This document shows positions 1 to 8,164 of a stretch of DNA of 64,000 nt, piece by piece. The notes beneath the pieces are model-generated. The model was not told where the DNA came from, ran no database searches, and saw only the letters and a list, made by a program, of their open reading frames with translations. The translations under genes and the position numbers were made by a program. The stretch spans positions 1 through 64,000 of the forward strand of contig JAFVRR010000003.1 of the NCBI GenBank assembly GCA_017504165.1, in the 5' to 3' direction. Source of the stretch: Clostridia bacterium (GTDB lineage: Bacteria; Bacillota; Clostridia; Christensenellales; Borkfalkiaceae). The first letter of the stretch is position 1. Every line of letters starts with the position of its first letter.

Positions 1-2
1 AG

Positions 3-1001
3 CAATATATTGCCTCTTGCAAGAATGCTCATGTTGGTGCGTATGAGCAGGCATGTGAAAGTTTTAATCAAATTAAAACAGGTGATTATGTTTTAATGAA
101 ATTGTTAGATGCTAAGTTTTATTTTGGCAAAGTAAAAGAAGAGGCAAGGTGGTATAACGGCGACAAAATTTCTTGGGCCTGTGAAGTTGAGGAATGGGTA
201 ACATATGAGCACGACTATGAATTGCCCTCGGAAATCCTTGGAAGATTGATGAGTCGTCATCAACCTACTATAACAAGAGTAAGTAGCTACAAGCATAGAT
301 TGCTTATGTTAAAGGCTTTCGAGTTAAAAAAGTATGGTAAATCTATTGTTCCTGGTATACAGATCTCTGTTGATAATTTTGCAAATACATTAACGCCCGA
401 ACGATTAGAAGATTTAGTTGCTTTATATATTTACAAAAAACACCCCGACTATATTTTGTTACCATCTTCTTGCAAAGTCAGCAGACCAATGTATGAATTT
501 GATTTTGTAAAAAATGGTTCTTTGCCAATTACATGTCAAGTAAAAAATGAGGCTGAAATTTCTTTAGAATATTATTTAAACGAGAAGTGTTATAATAAAA
601 TTTATCTCTTTTCTAATAGATGGTCTAATAGTAAAATATCTACTTTAAAAGAAAGGTGTTTAAATACTTGTGTCGAAATTATCACGCGCGAAGATTTATT
701 TGGACTTTTAACGGGGAAAGATAAGCTTATCGACTTCTCTAATGTTTACTATTCCTTTGATTATCGTGTAATCGATGTAGAAAAAGCGAAGTGCATATTA
801 GAAGAAAACGGGTATTATGTGTCTACTAAAAAGGCAAGAACACATAATTGTGACGTTGTTAACTTAAATACTGCGTGGATAGATTTTTACAAATATGGTA
901 TTTGGTATTCTGCGGAATTTAATGCTTTGATAAATGAATGGCAGATAGATAATCAAGTGATAGAAAAGATACAAACCGTGATAGAAAAAATTTTGGGTTA
1001 A
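3..1001 (+). CDS. Unknown protein, 5'-truncated by the window edge
   Basis: The reading frame is open from base 3 to the TAA at 999-1001, so the ATG at 96 is probably internal and the true start lies upstream of the window. About 332 residues are visible. I do not recognise the family. Numbering from the ATG at 96, a stretch near residues 130-155 reads YEFDFVKNG, then ITCQVKN. This acidic residue followed by a QxK pattern is what a PD-(D/E)XK nuclease core can look like, but it is only suggestive. The protein is rich in aromatic and charged residues and has no membrane segment. It lies just upstream of an exonuclease and an ATPase-like gene. In-frame AAT/TAT/GAT before GTN is common here, unlike the cell-wall genes downstream, which suggests transferred DNA. 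Confidence 0.6.
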   Translation, partial: QYIASCKNAHVGAYEQACESFNQIKTGDYVLMKLLDAKFYFGKVKEEARWYNGDKISWACEVEEWVTYEHDYELPSEILGRLMSRHQPTITRVSSYKHRLLMLKAFELKKYGKSIVPGIQISVDNFANTLTPERLEDLVALYIYKKHPDYILLPSSCKVSRPMYEFDFVKNGSLPITCQVKNEAEISLEYYLNEKCYNKIYLFSNRWSNSKISTLKERCLNTCVEIITREDLFGLLTGKDKLIDFSNVYYSFDYRVIDVEKAKCILEENGYYVSTKKARTHNCDVVNLNTAWIDFYKYGIWYSAEFNALINEWQIDNQVIEKIQTVIEKILG

Positions 1002-1029
1002 GCTTGTCCTTTTTTTGGTACAAGGGATA

Positions 1030-1038
1030 TGATATACT
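1030..1038 (+). promoter_or_regulatory. Extended -10 promoter for the exonuclease gene
   Basis: TGA followed by TATACT (1033-1038) is an extended -10. No good -35 lies 17 bases upstream. Transcription would start near 1045, inside the left arm of the hairpin at 1034-1067. Confidence 0.5.
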
Positions 1039-1072
1039 CTCTTTGAAAGAAAATTCAAGGAGAGTATTTTTT
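1034..1072 (+). terminator. Terminator hairpin that contains the next gene's ribosome-binding site
   Basis: ATACTCTCTTTGAA (1034-1047) pairs with TTCAAGGAGAGTAT (1054-1067): 14 bp with one G-T pair and a 6-base loop. Six T residues follow directly, then the ATG at 1073. The right arm includes the AAGGAGAG ribosome-binding site. Upstream transcripts would terminate here or have the site sequestered. Transcripts from the internal promoter would lack most of the left arm. Confidence 0.65.
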
Positions 1073-1906
1073 ATGGAAAAAGATAGAACTTTTATCGTGA
1101 TTGATATAGAAACGACAGGACTCAATAGTAACCCAGATTATGGGGAGGTAAATCATATTATTGAAGTGGGAGCAGTAAAAATCGAACAAGGTAAAATAAC
1201 AGAAAAGTTTAGTTCATTTTGTGCCTGTCCTATCTCTTTGCCGGATGAAATTGTAAAATTAACCGGAATATCAAATGAGGATTTAGCAAACGCACCAAGC
1301 GTGAAACAAGTTTTATTTGAATTAAATAATTTTTGCAAAAAAAGTGAAATTGTGGGGCATAACGTTTCATTCGATTTAGGCTTTTTGAATTATTATGGAG
1401 CGCAACAAAAAATATTGTTCAAACAAGCGTATGCGGATACGCTTACTATGTCCAGACTACTTTTGAAAAATAAGCTTGTAAATTATCGACTTGCAACTGT
1501 AGCTGACTATTTTAAGTTAAAATTTAATGGGCATAGAGCGTTAAATGATGCGATGGTTACGGCAAAAATTTTTATAAAACTTATCAATTTGCAAGATAAG
1601 CAAGAGAAAAAGAGGAATCGTTGGGTTGAAAAGCTTTGTAAAAACTGTAAAAACAAATGCCATTTATATGAAGATAATGGCAAGTGGGTGCCTGAAATCA
1701 CACCAAACGTTTATAGAAAAACGCTATGTTGGCTTTTAGACAAAAAGACAATAACGCTTGCAATGATGCAACGGGAACTGAAAATGGAGTATCCGTTGGC
1801 GGCAAATATAATGGACAGTCTAAAATTAGACGGGTTCATATCTTGCACTCAAAACATAATGGAAAAGAGAGTAAATCAAAAAAAGGTAAAGGTGATGTTC
1901 AAATGA
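1073..1906 (+). CDS. DEDDh 3'-5' exonuclease (DnaQ-like) with C-terminal winged helix
   Basis: The 277-residue protein removes nucleotides from DNA 3' ends if active. The DEDDh set is complete: D11 and E13 in DIET, D101 after HNVSF, H154 and D159 in HRALND. A four-Cys stretch at about 189-196 (CKNCKNKC) could bind metal. Residues about 213-260 resemble the FtsK-gamma DNA-binding winged helix (MMQRELKMEYPLAANIMDSL). The start at 1073 is chosen because AAGGAGAG lies 8-10 bases upstream; a TTG at 1004 in the same frame has no ribosome-binding site and would precede the DIET core with 23 unrelated residues. The stop overlaps the next gene's start as ATGA, so the two are translationally coupled. 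The pair could serve repair or defence; the sequence does not decide. Confidence 0.8.
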   Translation: MEKDRTFIVIDIETTGLNSNPDYGEVNHIIEVGAVKIEQGKITEKFSSFCACPISLPDEIVKLTGISNEDLANAPSVKQVLFELNNFCKKSEIVGHNVSFDLGFLNYYGAQQKILFKQAYADTLTMSRLLLKNKLVNYRLATVADYFKLKFNGHRALNDAMVTAKIFIKLINLQDKQEKKRNRWVEKLCKNCKNKCHLYEDNGKWVPEITPNVYRKTLCWLLDKKTITLAMMQRELKMEYPLAANIMDSLKLDGFISCTQNIMEKRVNQKKVKVMFK

Positions 1907-2835
1907 AAATTAAAAAAATTCAAATAAATAATTATTTCAATATTAAAGAATTTGTCTGCACGTTTGATAATGATAAAAATGTTATAAATATAGTTGAATC
2001 GCTAGAGAGTGATGGCGAGGAATTCTTTAATGAGGATGGTGATTTTTCATCGGCTATAAAAATGTTGTTTGATAATGATTCTTGTAATAAATTAAGAACT
2101 AGGATTAATAAAGGAACAATAGTTAAATGTGACATAGAGCACTATGGTGTAGATTTTACTTGGGGCTTAAAAGGTCATGCGGCAAGAGTTGAAACACCCG
2201 AAAAAATACTTTACGGCGATACGGTTCTTTGGGTTAGTGAATGCTATAATGACAAGCTTGAAGATAGGAAATATCCAAAAAGTCTATTTCGTTATAATTC
2301 TCAAGAATTTTTTTATCCTGAGATTCATAGGGAAGTAATGTTTTTTGATGAGGAATCATATATTCCCGACGTGATAATTGAAGGGGAATGCTCGCTAAAT
2401 GAATATTGCAAGCAAAAAGGATTCGAGTTAGATGTTGAAAAAGAGGCAGAAAATTTTTGCAAAAAAAAGGAATTTGTTTGGGTTGATGACAATACGCATT
2501 TAATGTTCAACGACGACTACGAGTATTTATTGGGAAATAAAGACCGTCTTATATACGATTTAACCGAAGAACAACGTGTGTTTTTATATCTTTACAACTG
2601 GATACAGCGATTATATGTTGTTACTAATATATACGATAAACTTGGCGAAGAAAATAAATATCCTGTTTTTGTGGATGGGGTTTTAGATAAAATTCATAAT
2701 CAGAAAATGGTAGAGTTTATTATAGATGAATTGCGCGGTACTGGTAGGCAGGTTTTTATAATATCGCATACAAATAGTGAAATAATTTCAGGATATAGCG
2801 ATCATATTGCTGAGATAAGAAAAGCGATAAGATAG
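1903..2835 (+). CDS. SMC/RecF-like ATPase relative without Walker A
   Basis: The 310-residue protein begins like SMC/RecF-type ATPases (MKIKKIQINNYFNIKEF), but the segment where GxxGxGK(S/T) should follow has no P-loop. The C-terminal half keeps a signature-like stretch (LTEEQRVF, about 221-228), a Walker-B/D-loop-like block (YPVFVDGVLDKI, about 253-264) and an H-loop-like IISHTNSE (about 287-293). It may be a catalytically dead relative or a regulatory partner of the coupled exonuclease. The start at 1903 is chosen over an upstream ATG at 1726 because it forms an ATGA overlap with the exonuclease stop and yields the family-like N-terminus. No ribosome-binding site is obvious, as expected for termination-reinitiation. 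The specific role is unknown. Confidence 0.6.
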   Translation: MKIKKIQINNYFNIKEFVCTFDNDKNVINIVESLESDGEEFFNEDGDFSSAIKMLFDNDSCNKLRTRINKGTIVKCDIEHYGVDFTWGLKGHAARVETPEKILYGDTVLWVSECYNDKLEDRKYPKSLFRYNSQEFFYPEIHREVMFFDEESYIPDVIIEGECSLNEYCKQKGFELDVEKEAENFCKKKEFVWVDDNTHLMFNDDYEYLLGNKDRLIYDLTEEQRVFLYLYNWIQRLYVVTNIYDKLGEENKYPVFVDGVLDKIHNQKMVEFIIDELRGTGRQVFIISHTNSEIISGYSDHIAEIRKAIR

Positions 2836-2952
2836 TTATGTTAGCTTTTAATAAGACACAAGCTAATAAAAATCGACAAAACTTAATATAAAAATTCCAA
2901 CCCTATATTTTATTATATATAATGTTTATAGGTTTATTTTTACGATTATAAA

Positions 2953-2968
2953 AAGTTTACACAAGTAA
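2953..2968 (+). repeat. 16-bp direct repeat, copy 1
   Basis: AAGTTTACACAAGTAA recurs exactly at 3056-3071. With a few mismatches the match extends to about 26 bases. The second copy sits at the edge of the spoVD/ftsI tail, so the pair may be attachment-site cores or scars of insertion. The 2836-3031 interval holds no credible gene. Confidence 0.7.
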
Positions 2969-3031
2969 GGGGAAAAACATCTTACTAAAAATTTGAGCAC
3001 ATGGAAACAGGCTAAGCTCCTTTATTTATAA

Positions 3032-3298
3032 GGGATTTTCAATGTTTTTATTGCCAAGTTTACACAAGTAAAAGGAAATACAGGTACTGCTCAAAAATAC
3101 GAAAACGGCGTTATTTCTCAAGGTAAATACGTTATGAGTTTTATTGGTTTTTTTCCAAGCAATAATCCAAAATATTTATGTTTAACTATCGTTGACGAGC
3201 CTAAAAATGGGAATTATGGTTCAACCGTTGCTGCACCACTTTGTAAAAAGGTGTTTGAGGGAATAATTAAGGCAAAGGAGATTAAAAATGTTGCTTAA
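3032..3298 (+). pseudogene. 3' remnant of spoVD/ftsI (class B penicillin-binding protein)
   Basis: In the frame ending at the TAA 3296-3298, codons 3083 onward read TGTAQKYENG, then SFIGFFP, IVDEP and YGSTVAAP. This is the C-terminal transpeptidase signature of SpoVD/FtsI, the septal peptidoglycan crosslinker that normally precedes murE. A stop at 3029-3031 closes the frame and about 88 codons remain of an expected 600 or more. The catalytic KTG triad reads NTG (AAT for AAA). The 16-bp repeat copy 2 (3056-3071) lies exactly where homology begins. The stop overlaps the murE start by 11 bases, as in intact operons. This looks like a gene cut by insertion or recombination. A functional copy would have to exist elsewhere, unless only a sporulation paralogue was lost. 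Confidence 0.8.
3056..3071 (+). repeat. 16-bp direct repeat, copy 2
   Basis: Exact repeat of 2953-2968, located where recognisable spoVD/ftsI coding sequence starts. The spacing between the copies is 103 bases. Confidence 0.7.
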
Positions 3299-5739: not shown

Positions 5740-7080
5740 ATGTATATTAAATTAACGTCGTTTTTAGTTGTTGGCTTAAAAAGAAGTGGGGTTTCAATTG
5801 CTAAACTATTGCTTAGCAAGGGGGCTGACGTATGCGTTTACGATCCATCAAGTGATAAAAACGTTGAAGAAAATAAGCGAGAACTGGTCTTGCTTAACGC
5901 AAAGGTAGTAAAAGAGCCGTTAGAAGTTCTAAAAAATATTGACGTTTTGGTGTTGAGCCCGGGCGTTCCAATCGATAGCGAAATACCTATTACTGCAAGG
6001 AGATTAAAAAAGCGTATTATTGGGGAATTAGAACTTGCTAGTTATTTCATTTCTTCGCCAATCGTTGCGGTTACCGGGACTAACGGTAAAACTACGGTTT
6101 GTTCGATTTTATCGCACGTTTTAGATAAAATTAAAAGTGAAAATTTGCTTGTTGGCAACGTTGGGACACCTTTATCTTCTAAATTAAACGAAATGAATGA
6201 AAATACCATTTTAATTACTGAAGTATCTAGTTTTCAACTTGAAACTACTAGTAGATTTTGTCCGCATATCGCTTGCATTTTGAATATAACGCCCGACCAT
6301 TTAGACAGGCATTACAATATGCAAAATTACATATTTTTAAAGGGTAAACTACTTTCTAATTTAAAAGAGAGCGAATACGCGGTACTTAACTACGACGATG
6401 AAAACGTTAGGGTGCTTAGCAAAAACACTAGGGCTAACGTCGTTTGGTTTTCTAAAGAATATAAGGTAGACGGCGCGTATTTAGAAAACGGCGATATTTA
6501 TTTTAACGAAGAGTTAATTTTATCTGCTGACGAAATTAATTTACCGGGTAAGCATAATTTAGAAAACGTTTTAGCGTGCGTTGCTATATTAAAACTGTTA
6601 GGTGTAAATAATAGCGAAATAAAAGATAATATATTATCTTTTAACGGTGTAAAACATAGGATTGAAGAAGTTAAAAATATAAACGGTATAACTTTTTATA
6701 ACGACTCTAAATCAACTAATCCCGACGCTACTATTAAGGCTATCAACTCAATGCAAAATCCAACCGTTTTAATTATGGGTGGTTTCGATAAGGGGCTTGA
6801 TTATAATTTAGTAATGAAAACGGTTGCGGACTCTAAACAGGTAAAAGAATTAATTTTAACGGGAGATAGCGCAAAAAAAATGTATGAAACGGCAGTTTTA
6901 AACAAGGTTAAAAGGGTGAGCGTTGTGCCTGATTTTACTTCTTCAATTAAACTTGCTTACTTAGAGTGTGAAAGTGGCGATTCCGTACTATTTTCGCCGT
7001 CGACTTCTAGTTTCGATATATTTACTAGTTACGAAGAAAGGGGAGATAAGTTCATTGAAATTGTTAACGGACTTAAATAA
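5740..7080 (+). CDS. murD: UDP-MurNAc-L-alanine:D-glutamate ligase MurD
   Basis: Adds D-glutamate to UDP-MurNAc-L-Ala in the cytoplasm. The 446 residues match the family length. The N-terminal nucleotide-binding fold begins FLVVGLKRSGVS, the ATP loop GTNGKTT is at 113-119, and the C-terminal domain contains FYNDSKSTNPDAT and IMGGFDKG. The start at 5740 follows a GAGG site right after the mraY stop. A longer frame from 5662 would run into mraY and add unrelated residues. The neighbours are cell-wall genes in the same orientation, so it is one operon. Confidence 0.95.
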   Translation: MYIKLTSFLVVGLKRSGVSIAKLLLSKGADVCVYDPSSDKNVEENKRELVLLNAKVVKEPLEVLKNIDVLVLSPGVPIDSEIPITARRLKKRIIGELELASYFISSPIVAVTGTNGKTTVCSILSHVLDKIKSENLLVGNVGTPLSSKLNEMNENTILITEVSSFQLETTSRFCPHIACILNITPDHLDRHYNMQNYIFLKGKLLSNLKESEYAVLNYDDENVRVLSKNTRANVVWFSKEYKVDGAYLENGDIYFNEELILSADEINLPGKHNLENVLACVAILKLLGVNNSEIKDNILSFNGVKHRIEEVKNINGITFYNDSKSTNPDATIKAINSMQNPTVLIMGGFDKGLDYNLVMKTVADSKQVKELILTGDSAKKMYETAVLNKVKRVSVVPDFTSSIKLAYLECESGDSVLFSPSTSSFDIFTSYEERGDKFIEIVNGLK

Positions 7081-8164
7081 AAACAATAAAGGTTTAATTA
7101 TTCCCTTATTGGCTATACTAATTACTCTTTTTGGAATAGTGATGGTCTATTCAGCGTCTAATTACTTTGCTGAAGTTACTTATAATGACAAGTTCTTTTT
7201 TGTAAAAAAGCAAGTTTTAGGATTTGTTTTAGGGCTTGTTTGTATGTTTATAACGTCAAAGATAAATTATTATAAACTCTTTAAAATAAAATATCCGCTA
7301 ATAATTAGCGGAATAGTGTTACTATTGCTTGTATTTACTCCTTTAGGTGTAGAAAATTACGGCGCTAAGCGTTGGATAAATTTAGGGGTGTTTACCATTC
7401 AACCGTCAGAACTTGCTAAGTTTTTTTACGTAATATTTTTAGCGGGGTATTTTGGCGATAAACCCGATAGGGCAAAAACCTTTAAAGGTATAATTATTCC
7501 ACTTTTATTGGGCGGTGTATTGTGTTTGGTTATAATGCTAGAACCCAATATGAGTATAACGATGTGCGTTGGAATGGTAATGATGGCTATTTTATTTGCA
7601 TCGGGGGTAAAACTAAAATATTTAATAATGATATTAATTCCCGTCGTTTTATTAGTTCCCGTGCTTATAATATCCGAGCCGTATAGATTAAAAAGGCTTT
7701 TAGCCTTTTTAAATCCTTGGGCGTCGCCTAAAAACGAAGGTTATCAACTAATACAATCTCTATACGCGTTAGGCGGTGGCGGAATGTTTGGATTAGGCTT
7801 ATTTAACTCTAGGCAAAAGTATCGGTTTTTGCCTTTCGCTGAAAGTGATTTTATACTGTCGGTAATAGGGGAAGAGTTAGGTTTTTTCGGTATACTTTTA
7901 CTCTTTTTAACTATGCTTTATTTGTGTTTTAGATGTTATAGGGTGGCGGTTAATTCTAAAGACGTGTATTCTTTTTTATTGTCAATAGGTATAACCACGG
8001 TTTTTATCGTTCAGGTTGCTGTAAATGCCCTAGTCGTAACTGGTAGTATTCCGCCGACTGGGTTACCGTTACCGCTTATCAGTTCCGGCAATACGTCTAT
8101 TATCGTATTTATGTCGGCGTTTGGACTAATTTATAATATTTCAAAAAGAACGGAAAATTATTAA
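7055..8164 (+). CDS. ftsW: SEDS-family peptidoglycan polymerase FtsW/SpoVE
   Basis: A polytopic membrane glycosyltransferase of the SEDS family that polymerises lipid II at the septum with a class B PBP. The 369 residues include YGAKRWINLGVFTIQPSEL, EPNMSITM, AESDFILSVIGEELGF and TGLPLPLISSGNTS, all typical of FtsW/RodA/SpoVE. I take the TTG at 7055 as the start: AAGGGGAGA lies eight bases upstream and the first helix begins soon after. The in-frame ATG at 6968 lies deep in murD. The start region overlaps the end of murD by 26 bases. By position the cognate PBP would be SpoVD/FtsI, whose gene is broken here. FtsW and SpoVE cannot be told apart from sequence alone. Confidence 0.9.
   Translation: MKLLTDLNKNNKGLIIPLLAILITLFGIVMVYSASNYFAEVTYNDKFFFVKKQVLGFVLGLVCMFITSKINYYKLFKIKYPLIISGIVLLLLVFTPLGVENYGAKRWINLGVFTIQPSELAKFFYVIFLAGYFGDKPDRAKTFKGIIIPLLLGGVLCLVIMLEPNMSITMCVGMVMMAILFASGVKLKYLIMILIPVVLLVPVLIISEPYRLKRLLAFLNPWASPKNEGYQLIQSLYALGGGGMFGLGLFNSRQKYRFLPFAESDFILSVIGEELGFFGILLLFLTMLYLCFRCYRVAVNSKDVYSFLLSIGITTVFIVQVAVNALVVTGSIPPTGLPLPLISSGNTSIIVFMSAFGLIYNISKRTENY

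Follow-up and report, generated by a model that had tools for sequence, protein, structure and literature searches.

ICEs that use serine recombinases and disrupt genes (PMC4701971), and intervening elements that lie in sporulation genes, are both already known. The streptococcal ICEs with triplet serine integrases insert into mutT, hsdM or traG; they disrupt a coding gene, show a very short direct repeat at the junction, and carry conjugation genes as well as tandem serine recombinases placed beside attR in the orientation of the target (PMC4701971). Sporulation genes are split, by a reversible type of insertion, by the prophages or prophage-like elements skin in sigK (PMC5025042), SPbeta in spsM (PMC4191935) and yin in yabG (PMC10747680), and by gin in gerE of Bacillus cereus, a non-phage element with three serine recombinases and without conjugation genes, for which excision in sporulation was shown (PMC5595907). 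In the open-licence papers searched, spoVD was not reported as a natural target of either kind; only a laboratory insertion of ICEBs1 at a secondary site in spoVD of B. subtilis was found, and its excision was undetectable (PMC3715440).

We analysed a window of 64,000 nucleotides of a Clostridia bacterium (genome G000, contig C18), the first base of which is a contig end (G000:C18:1). The window very probably opens with the right end of an integrative element that a large serine recombinase put into spoVD. The element family resembles the streptococcal ICEs in disrupting a coding gene with a very short direct repeat at the junction, and related elements also show apparent conjugation genes and tandem serine recombinases beside attR in the orientation of the target; it differs from them in the target, in the hosts, which are gut Clostridia, and in the recombinases, one relative having two full-size enzymes and another two together with a 132-aa one. 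It shares with gin the non-phage character, the sporulation-gene target and the serine recombinases, and with skin, SPbeta and yin the splitting of a sporulation gene, whereas it has conjugation-type genes; ICEBs1 is alike as an ICE in spoVD. The closest characterised recombinases are TnpX of Tn4451 and TndX of Tn5397, at about one-third identity, and these differ in attachment site and target. As far as the literature was searched, the target, namely the active-site codons of spoVD, the occurrence in at least 14 species-level genomes of four genera, and the apparent conjugation genes are new. The features of the window, all on the plus strand, are as follows.

1..3082, +, right-hand part of the integrated element, delimited by the junctions and by a 3.8-kb right end with the same ORFs in genome G083
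3..1001, +, cargo ORF truncated at the contig end, with 332 of 395 aa present (phage-defence candidate PDC-S02 of PADLOC, E 1.5e-21)
1073..1906, +, DEDDh exonuclease (RNase_T; PF00929, E 9.8e-35)
1903..2835, +, cargo ORF of 310 aa, without Pfam or NCBIfam match
2954..2979, +, putative second, upstream recombinase half-site with the first repeat copy inside, followed by TC instead of GG (matrix score 30.7)
3057..3082, +, predicted attP right half-site (second repeat copy: TTTACACAAGT plus 13 nt) and right end of the element, mirrored at the left end on contig C14 and with equal spacing in other right and left ends
3083..3084, +, GG in the Gly codon of KTG, the dinucleotide at which crossover is deduced, shared by left and right ends of relatives
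3083..3298, +, 3′ end of the host spoVD, which begins at the Gly of KTG, comprises about 71 codons and overlaps the start of murE; joined to C14 it gives 577 aa
3288..4754, +, murE, first gene of the intact rest of the host dcw cluster (PF08245/PF02875)
6968..8164, +, sole SEDS gene of the genome (SpoVE/FtsW type; PF01098, E 2.2e-98), one copy genome-wide

A sequence-only reading of this DNA had recognised the tail of a SpoVD/FtsI-type PBP immediately before murE, and this was borne out by a profile search (PF00905 positions 234-299, E 2.4e-10) and by the overlap of the tail with the murE start. Its figure of about 88 codons holds for the open frame; the part derived from the gene begins with the GG at 3083 and is shorter. 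The same profile search of the whole genome gave three places: this tail, a PBP in a 732-aa frame on contig C3, and C14:2913-3692, which covers profile positions 4-240. A complete transpeptidase domain was thus not found in one reading frame at this locus; the profile is split across two contigs, C14 (positions 4-240) and C18 (positions 233-299). On C14 the gene order is mraZ, mraW, a small FtsL-like ORF, one more ORF and spoVD, the names being assigned from position and sequence. There spoVD runs unbroken up to GTG GGA GGA AAG ACA GG, so that KTG is encoded. Joining the C14 and C18 halves at GG produced, in frame, a SpoVD/FtsI protein of 577 aa, which aligned without gaps to the intact genus members G003, G006 and G007 (70-72% identity), with one gap to G002 (73%) and with two to G020 (59%). 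The join region, VGGKTGTAQKY, is unbroken in all five alignments.

Because this composite aligns unbroken to intact relatives, the gene is split by inserted DNA and not beheaded. The cut lies inside the transpeptidase KTG motif, between KT and the end of the Gly codon, and both halves are intact and in frame. A full-length gene is normal at this locus, as had been proposed: relatives have an uninterrupted spoVD of 574-596 aa. Entry of DNA at the conserved KTGT codons is likewise supported. A natural short variant, named beforehand as a reason to abandon that view, does not account for a transpeptidase domain in two pieces on two contigs. The NTG that had been noted in the tail is element sequence, as its AAT codon precedes the crossover; the host gene encodes KTG, with no mutation of the catalytic motif.

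The 16-bp repeat, AAGTTTACACAAGTAA, is present at 2953-2968 and 3056-3071, 103 bp apart, exactly as first described, and is absent elsewhere in the genome. It is not a product of chance: when 400 order-1 Markov sequences, each 463 bp long, were generated, such a 16-mer repeat appeared in none, and the pair is the sole exact 16-mer repeat with a spacing of 17-150 bp in the window. It had been placed exactly where gene homology begins, but it belongs to the element DNA, on the upstream side of the crossover, and what looks like homology over GGAAATACAGG is an attP half-site that resembles the gene.

The position of the crossover was deduced from a comparison of ends. Genome G099 has ACAGGT at its left end and ACAGGC at its right end, G047 has ACTGGT and ACAGGT, respectively, the right end of G141 is TTAAGAGGTACGGC, and a third type of right end reads AAGA-GG-TACGGC. 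Since GG is common to all ends compared, it is the probable crossover dinucleotide (3083-3084). Counted from there, the right end of our element reads TTTACACAAGT-N13-GG and its left end GG-N13-ACTTGTGTAAA. Judged from these sequences, the element ends form a symmetric attP of about 50 bp, TTTACACAAGT-N13-GG-N13-ACTTGTGTAAA, of the large-serine-integrase type. The motif occurs at equal spacing in left ends of type B and right ends of type 2, and in a diverged form in the left end of type C. Furthermore, TTACACAAG occupies positions 16-24 counted from the crossover, and in the crystal structure of a Listeria serine integrase on an attP half-site the motif of the zinc-ribbon domain (ZD) lies at positions 16-24 (PMC3783163). 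The locus therefore has the symmetric attP, the crossover dinucleotide and the outer ZD-type motif of a large-serine-recombinase site. Given the location of TTACACAAG, the 16-bp repeat is the outer part of a recombinase half-site that is present twice.

That the repeat itself served as attachment core, or that a deletion removed the 5′ part of the gene, is extremely unlikely. An exact direct repeat near the junction invited this explanation, and yet the 5′ part is present on C14, the predicted core is the GG 12 bp downstream of the repeat, and the motif at the left end is inverted, not direct. Of the missing 5′ part and the further copy of the repeat that had been expected, the first was found; of the repeat there is no exact third copy but an inverted one at the left end. 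We also dropped the repeat as arm site of a tyrosine integrase after serine recombinases and the symmetric 13-nt spacing had been found.

The upstream half-site (2954-2979), 103 bp inside the right end of type 1, matches in 23 of 26 bases and has TC at the place of the core. Its score was obtained on a half-site matrix built without it; the best unrelated site in the 64 kb reached 12.2. It may be either an accessory site or the relic of an earlier end. Right ends of type 2 have a weaker second half-site copy 89 bp upstream of the end. A third ACACAAG, at 2856 and thus at an equal 103-bp pitch, was rejected as half-site (score 3.2).

The same arrangement recurs in relatives. A survey of spoVD tails in 151 family genomes revealed several short frames, and the N-terminal half was found separately in those genomes and in others. 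A search of 398 family genomes with the left-end pattern gave 16 matches. Fourteen of them, eight type A and six type B, are genuine ends, and every one of these sits at the spoVD KTG codons, in a total of four genera; the two others, in G011 and G106, lie inside other genes and are chance matches. Ends are thus carried by only about 4% of these genomes. Genomes G002, G042, G052, G074 and G091, for which an in-frame TAA was merely reported, were left out of the insertion count. Among 84,980 species genomes, a 346-aa protein of the element was found at nine loci, which overlap with the 14 left ends; all nine are behind the spoVD KTG codons, all are in Clostridia MAGs, and those with titles naming a source come from deer, goat and sheep guts. 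A further case is a left end of type C at spoVD in G090 (GGTGTCTTTCCACTTGCTTGCGCAAAC; L134, G090:C29), for which the matching spoVD tail was not found in that genome. This end leads to PHP-like, DeoR-like, rhamnulokinase-like and other sugar-metabolism ORFs, named by eye, and not to a conjugation module. Altogether, three types of left end and three types of right end were distinguished; all are joined to spoVD at one codon, and they combine freely (A-1, A-2, B-1, B-2 and B-3), which possibly reflects mosaic elements or several elements in tandem. In all interrupted genomes that were read, both gene halves are open and in frame.

Since the genome is a MAG-like assembly of 19 contigs with 2.57% contamination, in which contigs end inside the element and its middle is missing, one might suspect that misassembly or a binning chimera made the junction. 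The sequence-only reading, too, had named an assembly join as a way in which it could fail. The junctions are base-identical in independent assemblies of different genera, each with its own spoVD sequence, and the two spoVD halves fit seamlessly; we regard an artefact as hardly credible.

The left part of our own element is C14:1-2913. Contigs of type A in G047 and G129 run on for 12-13 kb and encode an XRE-like regulator, an AAA/DUF4143 protein, the 346-aa protein, a 690-aa ORF of VirB6 size, a PrgI-like protein just below cut-off, and a VirB4-type ATPase (821 aa, complete in G129). At the right end, G047 has recombinases of 545, 499 and 132 aa, and G141 has two, of 541 and 470 aa. Each of them has a Resolvase domain, and all point toward attR in the orientation of the target gene. 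The integrase gene that was to be expected thus belongs to the element family and stands beside attR in relatives. The best PDB match of an element recombinase is the TnpX catalytic domain (E 1.5e-31), and identity to TndX is 33.5%. The left ends bearing the conjugation genes in G129 and G047 are 97-100% identical in protein to that of our genome (99-100% for G129, which is of another genus), and our right end is 99.7-100% identical to that of G083, of a third genus. Such near-identical ends in genomes of other genera indicate recent transfer. Conjugation genes were not seen in G000 itself; from the related elements we infer that our element has its own recombinase and conjugation genes in its missing middle, and the element is thus integrative and probably conjugative. 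A sequence deposited as 'Subdoligranulum variabile plasmid' (OY725878.1; L165) encodes a VirB4 protein and a serine recombinase that share 48% and 33.5% identity, respectively, with their counterparts in the family, and is possibly a related ICE.

The cargo of our right end is shared with G083. In that genome the 3.8-kb right end likewise adjoins the resident spoVD; it agrees with ours in the three ORFs (99.7-100% amino acid identity) and in the end itself, and contains the full-length 395-aa version of the ORF at 3..1001, for which no Pfam match was obtained. The exonuclease has at its C-terminus a weak winged-helix-like FtsK_gamma match (PF09397, 24.8 bits, below the cut-off of 30.6). The 310-aa protein occurs, among the 398 genomes, in G000 and G083 only, and a search for a longer right end gave G083 alone. 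Scans of viral contigs with a recombinase and with the 310-aa protein gave no match. Near the left end of the element lies a PADLOC phage-defence candidate, PDC-S01 (L026:423-1724, G000:C14; E 8e-173). Two PF07508 genes of the genome, at the end of C17 and the start of C19, were rejected as the element integrase: they stand in other contexts and are not close to the element recombinases (about 22-25% identity for the C19 gene, no match for the C17 gene). A tyrosine recombinase gene is found about 66 kb downstream on the contig (G000:C18:69608-70153), and no link to the insertion was seen.

We then considered how carriers survive with a split gene. Of the curated families, stage V sporulation protein D (TIGR02214, E 2e-139) matches the C14 ORF best; the score does not reach the cut-off set for the full-length protein, which is no surprise for a truncated one. 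SpoIVA is present in 21 of 22 family genomes. A SEDS gene occurs exactly once in 21 of them and is absent from the remaining one. The class B-type transpeptidase, whole or in two pieces, is single in every genome and is accompanied by no more than one other transpeptidase, mostly in a class A-sized frame, the class being judged by size. The SEDS gene of the window, expected to encode the partner of the split PBP, scored 346.7 bits with the ftsW family TIGR02614 (cut-off 337.5) and 357.2 bits with the spoVE family TIGR02615 (cut-off 448.8). Many Clostridia are without a separate FtsW/FtsI pair, and in C. difficile the dcw-encoded SpoVD/SpoVE pair serves sporulation specifically, vegetative division being driven by a class A PBP (PMC10693644). 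With one class B PBP and one SEDS protein as in C. difficile, carriers would by analogy survive with spoVD split: SpoVD and its SEDS partner would act in sporulation only, and the class A-sized PBP would serve growth. The interrupted gene matches the spoVD family, and its sporulation-only role, with dispensability for growth, is likely in these uncultured hosts by the same analogy.

While the element is integrated, the split products probably do not work as a PBP, since the left ORF stops about 15 codons past KTG, without the C-terminal part of the fold. It is very unlikely that the N-terminal fragment, with its transmembrane segment and SxxK, keeps a partial function by activating SpoVE without transpeptidation. 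A catalytically inactive SpoVD of C. difficile does support asymmetric division in part, but catalysis is required for cortex synthesis and heat-resistant spores (PMC12713402), and the fragment is without the last approximately 70 residues of the transpeptidase fold.

The recombinase would recombine the attP of the element with an attB in spoVD at the GG crossover, and the reverse reaction between attL and attR would restore the KTG codons exactly. An intervening element interrupts a sporulation gene that precise excision restores; here the gene is interrupted, and the composite is in frame with KTG restored. Against the proposed insertion by a large serine recombinase, neither an excised circle nor an attP junction was seen, the middle of our element, and hence its own recombinase, is absent from the MAG, and the left end in G090 leads to sugar-metabolism genes. 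The insertion is well supported; excision during sporulation is a tentative inference.

Simple disruption of a growth-dispensable gene, serving maintenance of the element and leaving carriers asporogenous until its chance loss, is a real possibility that falls short of probable. The streptococcal ICEs disrupt mutT, hsdM and traG without known reconstitution (PMC4701971). The low share of family genomes with ends is consistent with a costly or transient state. Gut Clostridia are generally held to rely on spores for transmission, and this argues against simple disruption, as does the spread of the element across four genera.

Sporulation-controlled excision, in which the recombinase and a directionality factor would rebuild spoVD as with skin in sigK and gin in gerE, is tentative and rather unlikely. 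The target is of the sporulation-type spoVD family, the hosts retain SpoIVA, the gene halves are still open and in frame, and serine recombinases act in this way in gin, with three of them (PMC5595907), and in skinCd (PMC5025042). On the other hand, SpoVD acts earlier than sigK and gerE, in the asymmetric septum and the cortex in C. difficile, and the intact halves may merely reflect recent insertion. Contigs break at or near the core in G004, G009, G058 and G153. In G153 the left contig (C4 end, L127) stops at GGT, where attB (GGTA) and attL (GGTG) would diverge, and it shares exactly 141 bases with the start of the contig that carries the intact gene (C6, L092). This overlap fits a de Bruijn graph fork between empty and occupied alleles and is consistent with a mixture of both, but it is suggestive only: no element sequence was found at the break, and the right-side fork expected for mixed alleles is absent.

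It is conceivable, though on the whole doubtful, that a conjugative family enters at the KTG codons of the sole class B PBP gene and exits during spore formation, and that it would thereby control whether and when the host builds spore peptidoglycan. As the gene, attB and attP are defined to the base, the recombination is directly testable. Many Clostridia have only one SEDS/class B PBP pair, encoded in the dcw cluster, and these natural knock-outs also bear on whether vegetative division requires that pair; the existence of genome assemblies with a split spoVD suggests that it does not.
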